NCBI GenBank assembly: GCA_006218065.1
Contig: VBWE01000006.1
Span: 17,043-81,042 of the forward strand
Source: Bacteroidota bacterium
GTDB taxonomy: Bacteria > Bacteroidota > Bacteroidia > Palsa-965
Length of the DNA: 64,000 nucleotides
Direction: 5' to 3'
Under the pieces are notes generated by a model. That model saw nothing but the letters and a program-made list of their open reading frames with translations. It did no database searches and was not told the origin of the DNA. Both the position numbers and the translations under genes were made by a program. Positions within the stretch are counted from its first letter, which is position 1; each line of letters opens with the position of its first letter. Shown piece by piece: positions 2,556 through 46,625 of this stretch.

Positions 2556-3218
2556 GTGATCGACAGCCTTTCTTTCGATGAGTTCGTTTTGCGGATGAAA
2601 ACCCGCCTGCAGCAGCCGCTTCCCGGCGAAGAGGCGCACCGGCGTATGACTTCACGGCCCATGCGGCAGCGCACGTCGGAATACCTCAGCCTGCGGCCCG
2701 ATTACAAAAAAAGCAGCGTGCTCCTGCTCCTGTTTCCCGGCGAAGAAGGTCCCAAAACCGCGTTGATCGTGCGGCCGGAATACGATGGTGTGCACAGCGG
2801 ACAACTGGCTTTGCCCGGTGGACGTTTCGAAGAAGATAAAGATCAGTCGCTGCTGTTCACCGCCTTGCGTGAAACGGAAGAGGAAATCGGCGTGCGTATT
2901 GATGAAAGCGCTGTACTGGGAAGTCTTTCGCCGCTCTATATACCCGTGAGTAATTTTCTTGTCCAGCCTTTTGTAGCTGCCATCGGGCAGGAGCCACAGT
3001 TTAAACCCGATCAAACGGAAGTGCAGGATGTACTCACTGTTTCACTGGCGCATTTCCTCGACCCGTCAATTAAAATGGAGCGCAGTATCCCGATAAGCAG
3101 CGGCGTAAATATACTCGCACCCTGCTATATGATCGGGCAACGTATTCTCTGGGGAGCAACCGCCATGATGATGAGCGAAGTGGAAGTCCTGCTTTCGGAA
3201 GGGCAAGGAGGAAAATAA
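2556..3218 (+). CDS. Nudix hydrolase, CoA-pyrophosphatase (NudL) type
   Basis: 220 residues from a GTG start. The Nudix box (GX5EX7REUXEEXGU) is intact near residues 88-113: GGRFEEDK followed by RETEEEIGV, providing the metal-binding glutamates. The preceding strand (ALIVRPEYDGVHSGQLALPG) resembles the NudL/CoAse subfamily, which hydrolyses CoA and its derivatives to phosphopantetheine and 3',5'-ADP; the assignment to CoA rather than another nucleotide diphosphate is inference. There is no signal peptide, so it is cytosolic. It appears monocistronic, with a -7 box close to the start and a bidirectional hairpin after the stop. Confidence 0.9.
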   Translation: MIDSLSFDEFVLRMKTRLQQPLPGEEAHRRMTSRPMRQRTSEYLSLRPDYKKSSVLLLLFPGEEGPKTALIVRPEYDGVHSGQLALPGGRFEEDKDQSLLFTALRETEEEIGVRIDESAVLGSLSPLYIPVSNFLVQPFVAAIGQEPQFKPDQTEVQDVLTVSLAHFLDPSIKMERSIPISSGVNILAPCYMIGQRILWGATAMMMSEVEVLLSEGQGGK

Positions 3219-24076: not shown

Positions 24077-24217
24077 CCAGATATGAGATGTGAGATTTGA
24101 GACCTGAGATATCTGTATTTCCCTAAAGTGTTCTCATACATTTCGCGGTTATTCCCAAAGAAAAAATGTGAGCACTTTAGTGGAATACCTGTCTCAAATC
24201 TCACATCTCATATCTGG
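24077..24217. repeat. Long inverted repeat, family I copy 1
   Basis: Perfect 27-bp arms (24077-24103 and 24191-24217), plus inner arms ctaaagtg (24123-24130 and 24173-24180). The element sits between convergent genes and is flanked by a small aacgaag/cttcgtt hairpin. A second copy at 28750-28905 shares the architecture but differs in both arms in a compensating way. Confidence 0.9.
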
Positions 24218-28713: not shown

Positions 28714-28749
28714 GCCCGTATAGCCTGTATAAGTCAGCAGTGACTTTTC

Positions 28750-28905
28750 CAGATATGAGACTTGAGATTTGAGACACGTTTTTCCACTAAAGTGATCTCG
28801 GTTTTTTCAATTGTTCTTTTGCGCATTTCAAATCGAATAAAAGGACCTGGATCACTTTAGCTGAAAACCGTTATCTCACGTCTCAAATCTCAAGTCTCAT
28901 ATCTG
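28750..28905. repeat. Long inverted repeat, family I copy 2
   Basis: Perfect 26-bp arms (28750-28775 and 28880-28905) and perfect 11-bp inner arms ctaaagtgatc (28787-28797 and 28850-28860). Same words as copy 1, with coordinated changes in both arms (gacttgag/ctcaagtc here, gatgtgag/ctcacatc in copy 1). Flanked on the right by the aacgaagtcttcgtt hairpin that is on the left of copy 1. Confidence 0.9.
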
Positions 28906-28934
28906 AAACGAAGTCTTCGTTACACAGCAGATAC

Positions 28935-41229: not shown

Positions 41230-42021
41230 TTACACATACCCGAGTTTTTTCAACAGGTTCCCATACGTACGCATGATGAGTGCGTGATCTTCGTCGTTGA
41301 AATACTGCCGCCAGTTCCCGGATTTTCCTTCGCGGAAAAATTGTTTTTCACTTTTGTCCATGAATGCGCTGCCGTGTTTTTTCTCCTGGTCCTGCAGCGC
41401 GCTGAAATCACAACGCGTTATAATTTCCGCAGCGGGTATTGATAAGGTTATTCCGCAGAAAGCAGCGACCTCGCGGATAATTTCTTCCGGCTTTTCCAGT
41501 AAATCTTCGTAGCGCAGGAAAAGCAATCGTTCCGGGTTTTTTTCAGCGAAGTCAAGTGCATGTTCCACGTGTTCTTTCCAGGAACCGAAATCGTGCAGCG
41601 TATCCGCTTTCGCGATAAAACCCGGGAAACTGCCGGTCCAGGCCTTCAGCGCAACCTGGTAATGGTAATAGGAAACGAGTACGTCCCGGTAATCGCGCAC
41701 GATGTAAATCGTTTTCGGATAATCGTTGTACCAGGCATGATGCGCTTTGACGAACCGCGGGCGGGCCAGCGCATTCACCGCATCACGCGCCGAATACACA
41801 TCGGGAACGATGCTGTCGATATTCCGGAAATTCCATTTTCCCTCCGGGCGCAGCATATTCGCCAGCAAAAAACGCATCCAGGTATTTCCCGATTTCGGGA
41901 ACGAAACGATGAACGTATCATCCGGGTAAACGCGGTCGATCACCAGCCGGAATGCGGCTTCGTCAAACAAGCCGAGCTTGACCAGCAGGGCGCGGAAATA
42001 TTGTTTCGGTGTTCGCGGCAT
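41230..42021 (-). CDS. Sulfotransferase, Sulfotransfer_1 family
   Basis: 263 residues. All three family signatures are present: FIVSFPKSGNTWMRFLLAN (5'-phosphosulfate loop), TIYIVRDYRDVLVSYYHY (3'-phosphate) and FFREGKSGNWRQYFND (C-terminal PAPS clamp, usual RKGxxGDWKNxFT). The likely catalytic base is a His in KAHHAWYNDY. It should transfer sulfate from PAPS to a hydroxyl group of a lipid, sugar or small molecule. It belongs to a different family from its two neighbours, so three or four sulfotransferase types are clustered here. Confidence 0.9.
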   Translation of the reverse strand: MPRTPKQYFRALLVKLGLFDEAAFRLVIDRVYPDDTFIVSFPKSGNTWMRFLLANMLRPEGKWNFRNIDSIVPDVYSARDAVNALARPRFVKAHHAWYNDYPKTIYIVRDYRDVLVSYYHYQVALKAWTGSFPGFIAKADTLHDFGSWKEHVEHALDFAEKNPERLLFLRYEDLLEKPEEIIREVAAFCGITLSIPAAEIITRCDFSALQDQEKKHGSAFMDKSEKQFFREGKSGNWRQYFNDEDHALIMRTYGNLLKKLGYV

Positions 42022-42038
42022 TTAGGAAACAAAAATGC

Positions 42039-42128
42039 AAAAGGCAATTTGCAAAGAGCAAAATAGGAAAAAACGGGGCTCAGTTTCCAAAATGACTATT
42101 TGCATTTGCCCTTTGCGAATTGCCTTTT
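42039..42128. repeat. Inverted repeat at a divergent promoter region
   Basis: Arms 42039-42066 (aaaaggcaatttgcaaagagcaaaatag) and 42096-42128 are complementary apart from two substitutions and a few extra bases (tgc region) in the right arm. It lies between the divergent sulfotransferase and glycosyltransferase-like genes, unlike most elements here. Confidence 0.65.
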
Positions 42129-42173
42129 GATCAAACCGCCTTGCGGAAAATAACGTACTTTGCATTTCCGAAA

Positions 42174-43121
42174 ATGCTCCGCATTGCCCACATCATTAGT
42201 CCCGTAAACGCTGCCGCCGGCACTGAACTTGCGCGCGTGCAGCCCGTTACCTTCGAAACGATGCGCCGGGCGAAAGCGGCTGCAGTGGATGTCGCCGAAG
42301 TCGGTTTGTTCACTGCGCAGCTCCCGGAAGACCGCCCGGCTGTTCCGGAAGGATTCGTTCCCACGCCCGATCTTGCGCGCGCGCTTCCGGATGTGCTTCC
42401 CGCATCCAAACGCCGCCTGCCTTTGCTGGCCGATGTTTTACAGCGCCTGTACGAAGCCACGGATGCGGACATTCTGATATACACCAATGCGGATATCGCG
42501 CTGATGCCGGGTTTTTACCGCATGGTGGCGCAGTATGCCGCGAAAGGATACGATGCGTTCGCGATCAACCGCCGGCGGATTTCGTCACGTTTTAATTCGG
42601 TTGCCCAACTCGACGGGATGTATGCCGAAGCCGGTGAAATGCATCCCGGTTATGATACGCTCGTGTTTCACCGCGCACTCTTCGAAAAATTCCAGCTCGG
42701 GAATGTCGCAGTCGGTTTGCCCTGCGTGGACATGGCATTCCTGCACAACCTCATCGCCTTCTCCAAAAATTTTCGCCTCTTCACCGGCAAGCACCTTACG
42801 TTTCACATCGGCATGGAACTGGTGAAAACCTGGGGAAACAGCGCCGAGTCGGATTTCAACAAAACCGAAGCGCTCGCCGTAGTGAAAAAATTATACCCGC
42901 ATTATAATATCGCCAATTTCCCCGGCGCGAACCTCCCGTTTTTCAGCCGGCATTATAAGTGGCTGATGAACCCGAATTTCCATTACCCCACCATGCTTCG
43001 TCTCGACCGCGCACAAAGCAGCGTTCCCCGCCGCCCGCGAACCAAACAGCCGAAAGAAGAAAACAAAGAGCCGCGTTTTGAAAAACTGGTGAAGAAAATT
43101 GATTTCGGGGATGAGTACTGA
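42174..43121 (+). CDS. Glycosyltransferase-like protein (GT-A type), unclassified
   Basis: 315 residues from the ATG at 42174 (the frame is open to 42120, but that part lies in the repeat). MLRIAHIISPVN starts a Rossmann-like fold; ADILIYTNADIALMPGFYRM is typical of the GT-A nucleotide-sugar/metal segment, with NAD replacing a DxD motif. Later KGYDAFAINRRRISS and HIGMELVKTWGNSAESDFNK resemble substrate-binding loops. The C-terminus is Lys/Arg/Glu-rich (RRPRTKQPKEENKEPRFEKL). It probably takes part in assembly of the surface glycan. The stop TGA lies at the edge of a family II palindrome. Confidence 0.75.
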   Translation: MLRIAHIISPVNAAAGTELARVQPVTFETMRRAKAAAVDVAEVGLFTAQLPEDRPAVPEGFVPTPDLARALPDVLPASKRRLPLLADVLQRLYEATDADILIYTNADIALMPGFYRMVAQYAAKGYDAFAINRRRISSRFNSVAQLDGMYAEAGEMHPGYDTLVFHRALFEKFQLGNVAVGLPCVDMAFLHNLIAFSKNFRLFTGKHLTFHIGMELVKTWGNSAESDFNKTEALAVVKKLYPHYNIANFPGANLPFFSRHYKWLMNPNFHYPTMLRLDRAQSSVPRRPRTKQPKEENKEPRFEKLVKKIDFGDEY

Positions 43122-43131
43122 CCACACCTTT

Positions 43132-43269
43132 GGCCTCACCTCTTTCCTCTCCCAAGGAGAGGATGGTTTTACACCTTAAGCTGACGTTTCTTTTTTGTTT
43201 CTCAAAAAGTAACGTCAGCTGGCGAAGCGCAACACCATCCTCTCCTTGGGAGAGGAAAGAGGTGAGGCC
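43132..43269. repeat. Long inverted repeat, family II copy 1
   Basis: Perfect 35-bp arms (43132-43166 and 43235-43269) with perfect inner arms agctgacgtt (43179-43188) and 43211-43220. It fills the gap between convergent genes and begins 10 nt after a TACTGA gene end. Copy 2 at 45567-45690 has the same layout. Confidence 0.92.
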
Positions 43270-43276
43270 GGACCAC

Positions 43277-44035
43277 CTACCGCTGCCTCGGCTGCAGCAA
43301 TCCCATTTCAAACCCGAGTTTGCAGATCCGCCGGATAATTCCGCGGACTTTTCCCGGTAGTTTGGATACGAAAGCGTGGCGCATTTCAATCTGCTGCAGG
43401 CGAAGAAGGGAATGTACGTTCATGCAGATTTCGCGGCGGCGTTTTTCGAAATGCGGGTGAATAACGTCGGCGATAATAATATAACGCGGCTTATCCGTAT
43501 TGTTCCAGGCGCTGTGGTAATGCGCGTCGCAGAAAAGCAGCCACTTGCCTTCTTCCCAGCCGCGTTTTTCGCCGTTCACTTCCAGCCCGCAGGCCGGGAA
43601 AGGCTCGGGAATACTGATGCCGAGATGGCAGCGGAACATGGCGTTCGAGTCGCCGTAATGCGGGGCGATATTCGTTTGCGGGTCGAGCCAGCTGACCGAT
43701 GCGGAAAGCAGTCCCGGGATTTTTTTCAGGTAAGCTTCCACTTCCGGGGCGGCATCGCAGGATTCGTTCACCCGTTTTCCCCAGAAATAAAACGTCGTGA
43801 TTTTCCACCCGCCCGGTTTCGACGGAAGCGTGCGGAGAAAATACGGCTGCAGGTTGTCGCCGAGCTGGTTCAGGTATTTTTCGAGTGCGATTTTGAAAGG
43901 ACCGAATTCCGCTTCTGACTGCTTCACCCAATCGTAGTCGGCGGGATTAAAGTACGCGGGATATTTGCCCTTGTAAACGCCGCCCATGTAGCTGTACCAG
44001 GGTTTTTCGTCGAGATAATCTTTTTCGCTGCTCAT
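43277..44035 (-). CDS. Aspartyl/asparaginyl beta-hydroxylase-like Fe(II)/2-oxoglutarate enzyme
   Basis: 252 residues. SVSWLDPQTNIAPHYGDSNA and MFRCHLGISIPEP contain the APHxG ... RxHLG signature of the AspH-type family, followed by EEGKWLLFCDAHYHSAWNN with the second histidine and the 2-oxoglutarate site (NNTDKPRYIII). The N-terminal ~110 residues (YKGKYPAYFNPADYDWVKQS) and a basic C-terminal helix extend the domain. It hydroxylates an aspartyl, asparaginyl or similar substrate; related enzymes also work on carrier-bound amino acids. The start overlaps the upstream GNAT stop (ATGA), so they are co-translated. Confidence 0.85.
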   Translation of the reverse strand: MSSEKDYLDEKPWYSYMGGVYKGKYPAYFNPADYDWVKQSEAEFGPFKIALEKYLNQLGDNLQPYFLRTLPSKPGGWKITTFYFWGKRVNESCDAAPEVEAYLKKIPGLLSASVSWLDPQTNIAPHYGDSNAMFRCHLGISIPEPFPACGLEVNGEKRGWEEGKWLLFCDAHYHSAWNNTDKPRYIIIADVIHPHFEKRRREICMNVHSLLRLQQIEMRHAFVSKLPGKVRGIIRRICKLGFEMGLLQPRQR

Positions 44036-44694
44036 ACTTCAGAGGACTTGAATGTTAGTACTAAGTTCTTTTTCTGCGCGGTGGAAAGATTGTCGTATAT
44101 ATTAATAATGTTCCGGTTCCAGGGCAGGTCCGGATCATCAATATTACAAATAAATTGCGGGTCTGTTTTCCGCAAAAGCGTTTCCCGCAGCTTCGCGGTT
44201 TTGGCTTCGTAATGATCCTGCGTCAGCACATAAAGCTGGTTGTAGTTTTCGTCGTGCTCATCCACGATCCGGTAACCGAGCTGCCGGTTGAAAGCGATGG
44301 CTTTGGTATTGTCGCGGAGCACGCGGATGAATGTTTTTTCAAGCCCGAGGATGAACGAAATATCGGTGAGCAGGAACGAGGCCGACAGCGGGATGGTGGT
44401 ATTCCAGTATTCCTGTTCCCAGATGAAAATGCCGCCGTTCCGGGTTTCTTTTTTCTCCCAGTGGATATCCGCGCCGCTGATCAGCCCGATTTTAACGCCT
44501 TCGTGCACGATGATGAAATAATTGTTGCGGACGGTATTGATACCGGCAAACCATTTTTCCTGCATCTCCGGGCTGATCTCTTCGCGGTATTCCATATGCC
44601 GGCGCACATGCTCGGAATTGCGTTTCAGCCTGACCAGTTCGATATCCTCGTGCCGGAGGCGGATCAGCTCGATGCCGTAACCGCGAATAATCAT
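44032..44694 (-). CDS. GNAT-family N-acetyltransferase
   Basis: 220 residues. A GNAT fold of the ribosomal-protein/sugar-acetylating type: IELIRLRHEDIELVRLKRNS at the N-terminus, IIVHEGVKIGLISGADIHWE and the acetyl-CoA region TTIPLSASFLLTDISFILGL followed by KAIAFNRQLGYRIVDE, which resembles the C-terminal N-x-A-x-x-x-Y-x-x-x-G-F motif. It probably N-acetylates an amino sugar of the surface polymer. The C-terminal ~60 residues extend beyond the domain. Four-base overlap with the hydroxylase gene. Confidence 0.85.
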   Translation of the reverse strand: MIIRGYGIELIRLRHEDIELVRLKRNSEHVRRHMEYREEISPEMQEKWFAGINTVRNNYFIIVHEGVKIGLISGADIHWEKKETRNGGIFIWEQEYWNTTIPLSASFLLTDISFILGLEKTFIRVLRDNTKAIAFNRQLGYRIVDEHDENYNQLYVLTQDHYEAKTAKLRETLLRKTDPQFICNIDDPDLPWNRNIINIYDNLSTAQKKNLVLTFKSSEV

Positions 44695-44740
44695 GCAGCC
44701 AAGTTAACGAATCGCGTGCATCTTTTTCGATCTTTGTTAC

Positions 44741-45562
44741 ATGGGCGTTTTCTTCCTGCAGCTCCGGCTGAAAATAAAATCGATCCTGCTCAGGCTTCTC
44801 TATTTTAAGAACGAGCAGGTGCTTTTGCGCGGAGAACTGAAGAATACGCCGGATAAAATCCCGGTCATTTTTTTTACGGTACACAAGGCGGGTTCTTCAC
44901 TGCTTTCCGACCGGCTCACGAAACTGTTCAGCCGCAGCGGCTACGTCACCGCCGATCTCAGCAGCTTTTTCGCCAAGACGAATCCTGCGCAGCGGAAAAA
45001 GTTCTTCGCCGACCTGAGGTGGAAAGAGAAAGTCTTCTCACAGCGCGGCGTATACTACTGCGTTTTCCGGTATCCGTTCGACGTTCCTTTTTTCGATAAG
45101 CATAAAATCATCCTCGTGCTTCGCGACCCGCGTGATATTCTTGTGTCACATTATTTTTCCACACGCTTCAGCCATCCTACGCAGAACATGGATTTCTTCA
45201 GCCTGAAAGAAAAAGCGAACAGTATGACCATTGATGAGTACGTGCTTTTTATCGCTGACGATTTCCGGCAGCGTTACGAAAAATACCTCGGGATGATCGG
45301 CAAAGAGAACGTGCTTTTCCTGCGTTACGAAGACATGATCACCGCGCCGGTTGATTTTGAAGAACGCATCCGCACATTCCTCGGCATGCCCGTCGAAAAA
45401 GGCGAACTGGTCAGGGAAGAAGATTTCCAGCTGGAACAGGAAAATCCACAGGCGCATAAACGCTACGTACAATCCGGCGACCATATCCGCAAACTGAAAC
45501 CGGAAACGATCGAAAAACTGAACGGAATCTTTGGAAAAGTGCTGGTTCCGCTGGGGTACTGA
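44741..45562 (+). CDS. Sulfotransferase-like protein
   Basis: 273 residues. The PAPS loop is FFTVHKAGSSLLSDRLTKLF (HKAGSS instead of PKSGTT), and the 3'-phosphate motif is ILVLRDPRDILVSHYFSTRF. FLRYEDMITAPVDFEERIRT completes the family pattern. The N-terminal ~35 residues are basic and hydrophobic (LRLKIKSILLRLLYF), which may attach it to the membrane. It is the fourth sulfotransferase in 6.2 kb and faces the opposite way from the others. A GATCTTTG box, one change from consensus, lies near 44729-44736. Confidence 0.85.
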   Translation: MGVFFLQLRLKIKSILLRLLYFKNEQVLLRGELKNTPDKIPVIFFTVHKAGSSLLSDRLTKLFSRSGYVTADLSSFFAKTNPAQRKKFFADLRWKEKVFSQRGVYYCVFRYPFDVPFFDKHKIILVLRDPRDILVSHYFSTRFSHPTQNMDFFSLKEKANSMTIDEYVLFIADDFRQRYEKYLGMIGKENVLFLRYEDMITAPVDFEERIRTFLGMPVEKGELVREEDFQLEQENPQAHKRYVQSGDHIRKLKPETIEKLNGIFGKVLVPLGY

Positions 45563-45566
45563 CTAC

Positions 45567-45690
45567 ACCTCTTTCCTCTCCGAAGGAGAGGATGCCGGTT
45601 CAAAACGAAGCTGACGTTTCTTTTTGAGAAACAAAAAGAAACGTCAGCTTAAAGTGTAAAACCATCCTCTCCTTCGGAGAGGAAAGAGGT
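45567..45690. repeat. Long inverted repeat, family II copy 2
   Basis: Perfect 28-bp outer arms (45567-45594 and 45663-45690) and a perfect 19-bp inner stem (45608-45626 and 45632-45650, loop agaaa). Starts 4 nt after TACTGA, the end of the sulfotransferase gene, as in copy 1. Core ctccgaaggag/ctccttcggag here versus ctcccaaggag/ctccttgggag in copy 1: both arms changed together. Confidence 0.92.
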
Positions 45691-45707
45691 GAGGCCGGAC
45701 CACCAAC

Positions 45708-46625
45708 TCAAATCTTCTTCTTGATCGAATACGAAGGCCGCTGGTTCTGGAGCTGGAAAAGCTTGTACATATATTGCCCCACAATGCCCATGCAAAGCAT
45801 CAGGATGCTGGCCGAGAAAAGCGTAGCCACGATCTGCGCGGTAAACCCGTCAACGGTGATCTGGTGCGCAAACTTCCGGTAAATGAAAATGATGCCGAGT
45901 GAAAAAGTAAAGATCGATCCCAGGAGCCCGAGCAGGATCATGAGGCGCAGCGGGACAACGGAATGGTTGACAATAATATTGACGTACATCGCAGCGAGTT
46001 TCCGGAAACTGTAGCCCGATTTTCCTTCTTTGCGCGGATGATGCTCCACATCCACCGAAGCGAAGTAGCCGGTGTACCAGTGAATAATTTCATCCACAAA
46101 AACCCAGTTCTGATGACGGTGCTTTTCCATCTGCTCGATGATGGATTTACGGATCAGCCGGAAAGAACTGCCCTCGCCGCGGTTATCCTGTGCGAGTTTC
46201 GACGTGTTCCGCAGGAAATAACTTCCCGCAACCCGCAAAGCGCCGTGCCTGCGGTGTTTGGGAATTCCGTACACCACGTCGGCATCGGTCTCTTCGAACT
46301 TCGCGATCAGTTTCGGAATCTCCGAAGGCGGATGCTGCATATCGTCGTCCATCGTTATAACGAGATCGCCTTTCGCAAAACTGAATCCGCAGAGCAGCGC
46401 ATTGTGCTGTCCGAAATTCTGGCTTAGCCTGACACCGCTGATCCTGGCAGGATGCTTTGCTTTCAGTTTTTCGATCTCCGCCCAGCTGCCGTCGCGGCTT
46501 CCGTCATCCACAAAAATAACTTCGTACTCCGCCTTTCCTTCCAGTTCATGCATAATGCCGGAAAAAAGAGGATCCAGCATCGGTGCGCTGTTGTAAACGG
46601 GTATGACGATAGAAAGTTTGTGCAT
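45708..46625 (-). CDS. Family 2 glycosyltransferase with two C-terminal helices (GtrB/DPM-like)
   Basis: 305 residues. GT2 motifs: SIVIPVYNSAPMLDPLFSGI, VIFVDDGSRDGSW (DDG) and DDDMQHPPSEIPKLI (DxD metal site); GEGSSFRLIRKSIIEQM is the acceptor loop. Two long hydrophobic helices follow (VPLRLMILLGLLGSIFTFSL and AQIVATLFSASILMLCMGIV). This architecture transfers a sugar from a nucleotide donor to undecaprenyl phosphate at the inner membrane. It fits a surface-polysaccharide locus. Transcribed toward the family II palindrome. Confidence 0.92.
   Translation of the reverse strand: MHKLSIVIPVYNSAPMLDPLFSGIMHELEGKAEYEVIFVDDGSRDGSWAEIEKLKAKHPARISGVRLSQNFGQHNALLCGFSFAKGDLVITMDDDMQHPPSEIPKLIAKFEETDADVVYGIPKHRRHGALRVAGSYFLRNTSKLAQDNRGEGSSFRLIRKSIIEQMEKHRHQNWVFVDEIIHWYTGYFASVDVEHHPRKEGKSGYSFRKLAAMYVNIIVNHSVVPLRLMILLGLLGSIFTFSLGIIFIYRKFAHQITVDGFTAQIVATLFSASILMLCMGIVGQYMYKLFQLQNQRPSYSIKKKI

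Follow-up and report, generated by a model that had tools for sequence, protein, structure and literature searches.

A genome-restricted family of palindromic repeats placed mostly just behind stop codons in a Bacteroidota bacterium

Two palindromes between converging genes

The stretch of 64,000 nucleotides analyzed here (the window, C6:17043-81042) is part of a 5.26 Mb, 81-contig draft genome of a Bacteroidota bacterium. It carries two long palindromes, each following the end of a forward-strand gene (Table 1). An inverted-repeat search of the window reported five inverted repeats in all, two of which are these palindromes; the arms are 39 nt long and 97% alike in copy 1, and 29 nt long and 100% alike in copy 2. 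The arm motif occurs at four places only in the window, all in the two palindromes, and at none in 100 shuffles. Inside both pairs of arms lies an inner stem around AGCTGACGTT. The preceding gene ends in TACTGA in both cases (stops at 43121 and 45562), GGACCACC and an opposite-strand gene follow the element, and the core differs between the two copies in both arms, CCCAAGG/CCTTGGG versus CCGAAGG/CCTTCGG: in all these points the initial annotation is confirmed.

The outermost bases of copy 2 are asymmetrical, GACTACACC versus GGTGAGGCC. In four copies of the family described below (both window copies, C38, and C78:175256), GGCC is followed by GGACCA or GGACTA, so that this flank probably forms the element's outer end there. 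Clustered around the elements (window 41230-45562) are sulfotransferase-like genes and one for a hydroxylase; 41230-42021 is called sulfotransferase-like by sequence inspection only, and 44741-45562 and 43277-44035 have Pfam matches. The window also holds members of a second, unrelated palindrome family made of GAGAYnT heptamers (24077-24217 and 28747-28908), which has 54 pattern matches in the genome; at 14 of 20 examined loci, the 3' end of a gene is no more than 40 nt away.

Table 1. Positions of the two palindromic elements and the adjoining genes in the window
Feature	Position	Strand	Basis
Full palindromic element, copy 1	43131..43270 (genome C6:60173-60312)	.	covariance-model match, 121.9 bits; inverted repeat
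Left outer arm, copy 1	43132..43170	+	inverted-repeat search
Right outer arm, copy 1	43231..43269	-	inverted-repeat search
Local hairpin CCTCTCCCAAGGAGAGG, left arm of copy 1	43146..43162	.	hairpin pattern; pair counts
Local hairpin CCTCTCCTTGGGAGAGG, right arm of copy 1	43239..43255	.	hairpin pattern; pair counts
Central hairpin, copy 1, AGCTGACGTT stem	43179..43220	.	sequence/fold
GGACCACC flank, copy 1	43270..43277	+	sequence
Full palindromic element, copy 2	45560..45697 (genome C6:62602-62739)	.	covariance-model match, 122.5 bits
Left outer arm, copy 2	45566..45594	+	inverted-repeat search
Right outer arm, copy 2	45663..45691	-	inverted-repeat search
Central hairpin, copy 2	45609..45649	.	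sequence/fold
GGACCACC flank, copy 2	45697..45704	+	sequence
Gene before copy 1, ends TACTGA, no Pfam match	42174..43121	+	longest ORF from 42120
Convergent gene 3' of copy 1, Asp/Asn beta-hydroxylase domain	43277..44035	-	Pfam
Sulfotransferase gene before copy 2, ends TACTGA	44741..45562	+	Pfam
Convergent gene 3' of copy 2, glycosyltransferase-like	45708..46625	-	sequence look only

A family of inverted dimers confined to one genome

A covariance model built from 13 copies and then searched over the whole draft genome identifies 17 full copies of 133-140 bp, scoring 104-152 bits, and both window palindromes belong to this one genome-restricted family. The bare hairpin pattern CCTCnCCnnnGGnGAGG has 38 sites in the genome, made up of the arms of the full copies and nine solitary half-copies. 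The suggestion that the window palindromes represent a copied unit is thus borne out. Full copies are built as inverted dimers, from a C-rich outer arm, a local hairpin (7 bp, CCTCnCC-nnn-GGnGAGG), linker A or B, and a long central hairpin. The ends of the element can be distinguished by their linkers, which read C[TC]GG... (A) and G[CT]RTTAC... (B), and the centers, AAGTGACGTTCC and AGCTGACGTTTC, define two subfamilies.

Paired changes in the arms, noted initially for the window copies, are present and strong in the family. Across the 17 aligned copies, pairing holds in 98% of cells, and both-sided changes are seen in 15 of 50 pairs (66 cells versus 21.7 in shuffles), a signal that is destroyed when the partners are slid. 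Pair counts also support the local hairpins, with four-way changes in which, e.g., both arms go from CTCC/GGAG to CCCC/GGGG. Few one-sided wobble intermediates are seen at the positions of paired change, and arms are more alike within an element than between elements (95.5% versus 86.3%; 0/20000 permutations). Since the paired changes mostly lack one-sided intermediates, arm-to-arm copying at the DNA level fits them; DNA-level events are likewise indicated by the C63 copy, in which a both-arm change breaks both local hairpins, and by the C78:216920 copy, in which one loop is inverted. From these sequences we infer arm-to-arm correction in the DNA, to which selection on RNA may contribute without being required. 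The family is a clean case of paired arm changes arising with few visible one-sided intermediates, and it advises caution: covariation in long palindromes is not proof of a selected RNA structure.

Searched by exact pattern, the full element is found in this genome alone among 395, with 0 of 394 other genomes of the phylum containing it. In relatives, the covariance model returns weak matches only, with an arm core like CCTCACC-n-CCTCTCCnnnGGAGAGG; they occur in 56 of 295 genomes of the class, often as inverted pairs. These Bacteroidota-wide palindromes resemble the window family in arm core, hairpin and inverted pairing but have other linkers and centers and a weaker proximity to stop codons. 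Judging from the shared core, the window family is probably a derived, local form of this widespread palindrome. No description of the Bacteroidota-wide palindrome was found in the literature searched, and a full-text search for the core sequence returned no paper; genome contigs and viral contigs (exact scans) and plasmids (blastn) gave no match, in searches that may leave out near records.

Placement at stop codons and insertion between genes

Genes were predicted from codon usage, by a caller trained on 404 kb of the genome (predictions uncurated). On this basis, the start of a full copy is no more than 15 nt from a stop codon in 13 of 17 cases, versus 7.3% of intergenic points (p~3e-12), and no more than 3 nt in nine, versus 2.0% (p~1e-11); C78:315990, where the neighboring gene is uncertain, was entered as a miss. 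For modules of the Bacteroidota-wide palindrome, a stop is 15 nt or less away in 5 of 25 cases, compared with the 13 of 17 found here. Placement at gene ends, as noted initially, is real, sharp and far beyond chance: the positions are not random. Its particulars do not extend to the family: among the stop contexts listed, TACTGA is found at the two window copies only, with TAA, TAG and TGA elsewhere, and just five full copies lie between convergent genes, 11 being in tandem and one in divergent surroundings. Convergent gaps around the element are not significantly shorter than usual (p=0.12). Copies inside genes had been named as an outcome that would speak against the proposal; 16 of the 17 full copies are intergenic, and the exception, at C24, is read into by an upstream ORF without its own stop, which ends inside the element (L078 1493-3049; genome C24:30765). 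At least five of the nine solitary halves also lie directly behind a stop, with their outer end toward it; at the junctions, TAA is followed by AGCCTCACC (twice) or AGTCTCACC, TAG by AAGGCCTCACC, and TGA by CCTCACC.

Comparison with the same gene pairs in relatives shows the element to be extra DNA at three loci. The RlmL and PfkA genes are 41 bp apart in one relative (G006) and overlap in another (G004); here, a TAG, the element and a short remainder lie between them. A TPR protein gene and a sensor-like gene are separated by 26, 39 and 43 bp in relatives versus 190 bp with the element here, and an S51 peptidase gene and its neighbor by 13 bp in relatives, in a gap that holds a half element here. 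Because these pairs are tight or overlapping in relatives (13-43 bp), the repeat is inserted DNA that follows closely on the stop codon, in line with the mobile or copied unit proposed initially. The compared genomes include none of the same genus, so there is no precise empty site; target duplication is not detectable (mean 1.4 nt versus 1.6 with shuffled partners). Where a Pfam domain extends to the C-terminus of a flanking protein, it is complete (YjdM to 69/69, SPOR to 75/76, LytTR to 97/98), and homologues of the flanking proteins in sister genera stop at about the same residue. The stops in front of the copies are native, and gene truncation by insertion is unsupported, save for the read-through at C24. 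In the relative G002, the end of the same S51 peptidase homologue gene bears a different palindrome, CAATCCCCCCAACAGAATTGTTGGGGGGATTG (L149, downstream).

Nature and possible role of the repeats

We read the window palindromes, with a probability of about 0.6, as genome-restricted, non-autonomous, copied repeats of a BIME/REP-like kind. Such repeats would have been spread by a kind of copying in which hairpin DNA is exposed or used, the enzyme for which may be supplied in trans or now be lost, and their two arms would be held alike by arm-to-arm template switching. Directly behind a stop codon, the stem may act on the mRNA like a REP, by protecting the 3' end or by affecting how translation ends, and not as a canonical terminator. 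Since REPs in other bacteria often lie <20 bp from gene 3' ends (PMC3733652), and those within 15 nt of a stop can affect translation and stall ribosomes (PMC12306157), this is the most economical guess at a function.

Like REPs and BIMEs (PMC2817692, PMC3733652, PMC12306157), the repeats are intergenic palindromes (16 of 17), all inverted dimers, with paired changes and often just behind stops. They are much longer (133-140 bp), have about 17 copies instead of hundreds (17 full and nine half copies, where REPs usually exceed 100), and lack both a GTAG/CGTC tag and a RAYT flanked by copies. They share with MITEs a short, non-autonomous form, terminal inverted repeats and the presence of several copies, but they show no target duplication, the search for a parent insertion sequence found none, and nearly the whole element is palindromic. 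No transposase is associated with the elements, and the draft assembly holds no parent element with a transposase and the same ends: all 38 hairpin sites are accounted for, and none is inverted around a gene. In Rfam, no match exceeds the gathering score; the hairpins have only sub-threshold microRNA matches, and membership in a known RNA family was rejected.

Alternatively, the repeats could be bidirectional transcription terminators, as the initial annotation suggested, copied and kept at gene ends since they end transcripts. This is possible but unsupported, and we consider it unlikely. Placement directly behind stop codons, a very stable fold (about -88 to -112 kcal/mol), a T-rich stretch in each half ~60 nt past the stop, and a C-rich, G-poor arm that by its composition could load Rho would all suit a terminator. 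As with intrinsic (Rho-independent) terminators, a stem-loop follows the stop codon, but no U-tract comes directly after the strong GC hairpin: the terminator search found only a weak TGGTTTTACA tail, and its 25 terminator-like sites in 16 kb are at chance level (23.2 expected). A separate scan scored internal T-runs in some copies, with no GC stem seen directly before them. Some solitary copies come after an ordinary terminator (C25, C78:90890), and other copies lie within tandem pairs that are tight and operon-like in relatives, a setting in which strong termination would have polar effects.

Two accounts of the placement itself differ in whether insertion is guided. On the first, the palindrome would be mobile and truly specific for the ends of translated genes, inserting right at a stop or a few bases away and sometimes supplying the last stop base or bases (TA|G, T|GA), by way of a putative hairpin-processing enzyme; we put this forward tentatively, as rather doubtful. 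Guided insertion at stop codons, if real, would be unusual as a target rule among small bacterial repeats, and it would offer a natural means of adding sequence behind genes while leaving them intact. Purifying selection alone, by which copies land anywhere and survive just behind genes because they do least harm there, strikes us as improbable. It would remove insertions in genes and promoters, and it accommodates REPs elsewhere, which often lie <20 bp from convergent gene 3' ends (PMC3733652); the GAGAYnT family is biased to gene 3' ends as well, so copies could owe their position to tolerance or selection and not to targeting. The presence of 9 of 17 copies within 3 nt of a stop, versus 2.0% of intergenic points, is, however, sharper than avoidance of harm predicts. 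Overall, the family reads best as mobile, and a terminator role is unproven.

That the family consists of classical GTAG/CGTC REPs mobilized by a RAYT transposase is very improbable: the inverted-dimer architecture, the intergenic 3'-end position and two Y1_Tnp genes in this genome fit, but the copy number is low, the hairpin ends in the 17-copy alignment bear neither GT(A/G)G nor CGTC (the latter is present only inside the central stem), and no cognate module flanks any of 32 Y1_Tnp loci (two own and 30 in relatives). One Y1_Tnp (RAYT-like) gene, in C76, adjoins a GTAGGGGCGATGC/GCATCGCCCCTAC palindrome that looks like a GTAG-type REP (L032 ~1980-2015). In C61, tandem small hairpins, each followed by ATTGGTTCGG, lie directly behind a TGA stop (L094 ~3000-3150).
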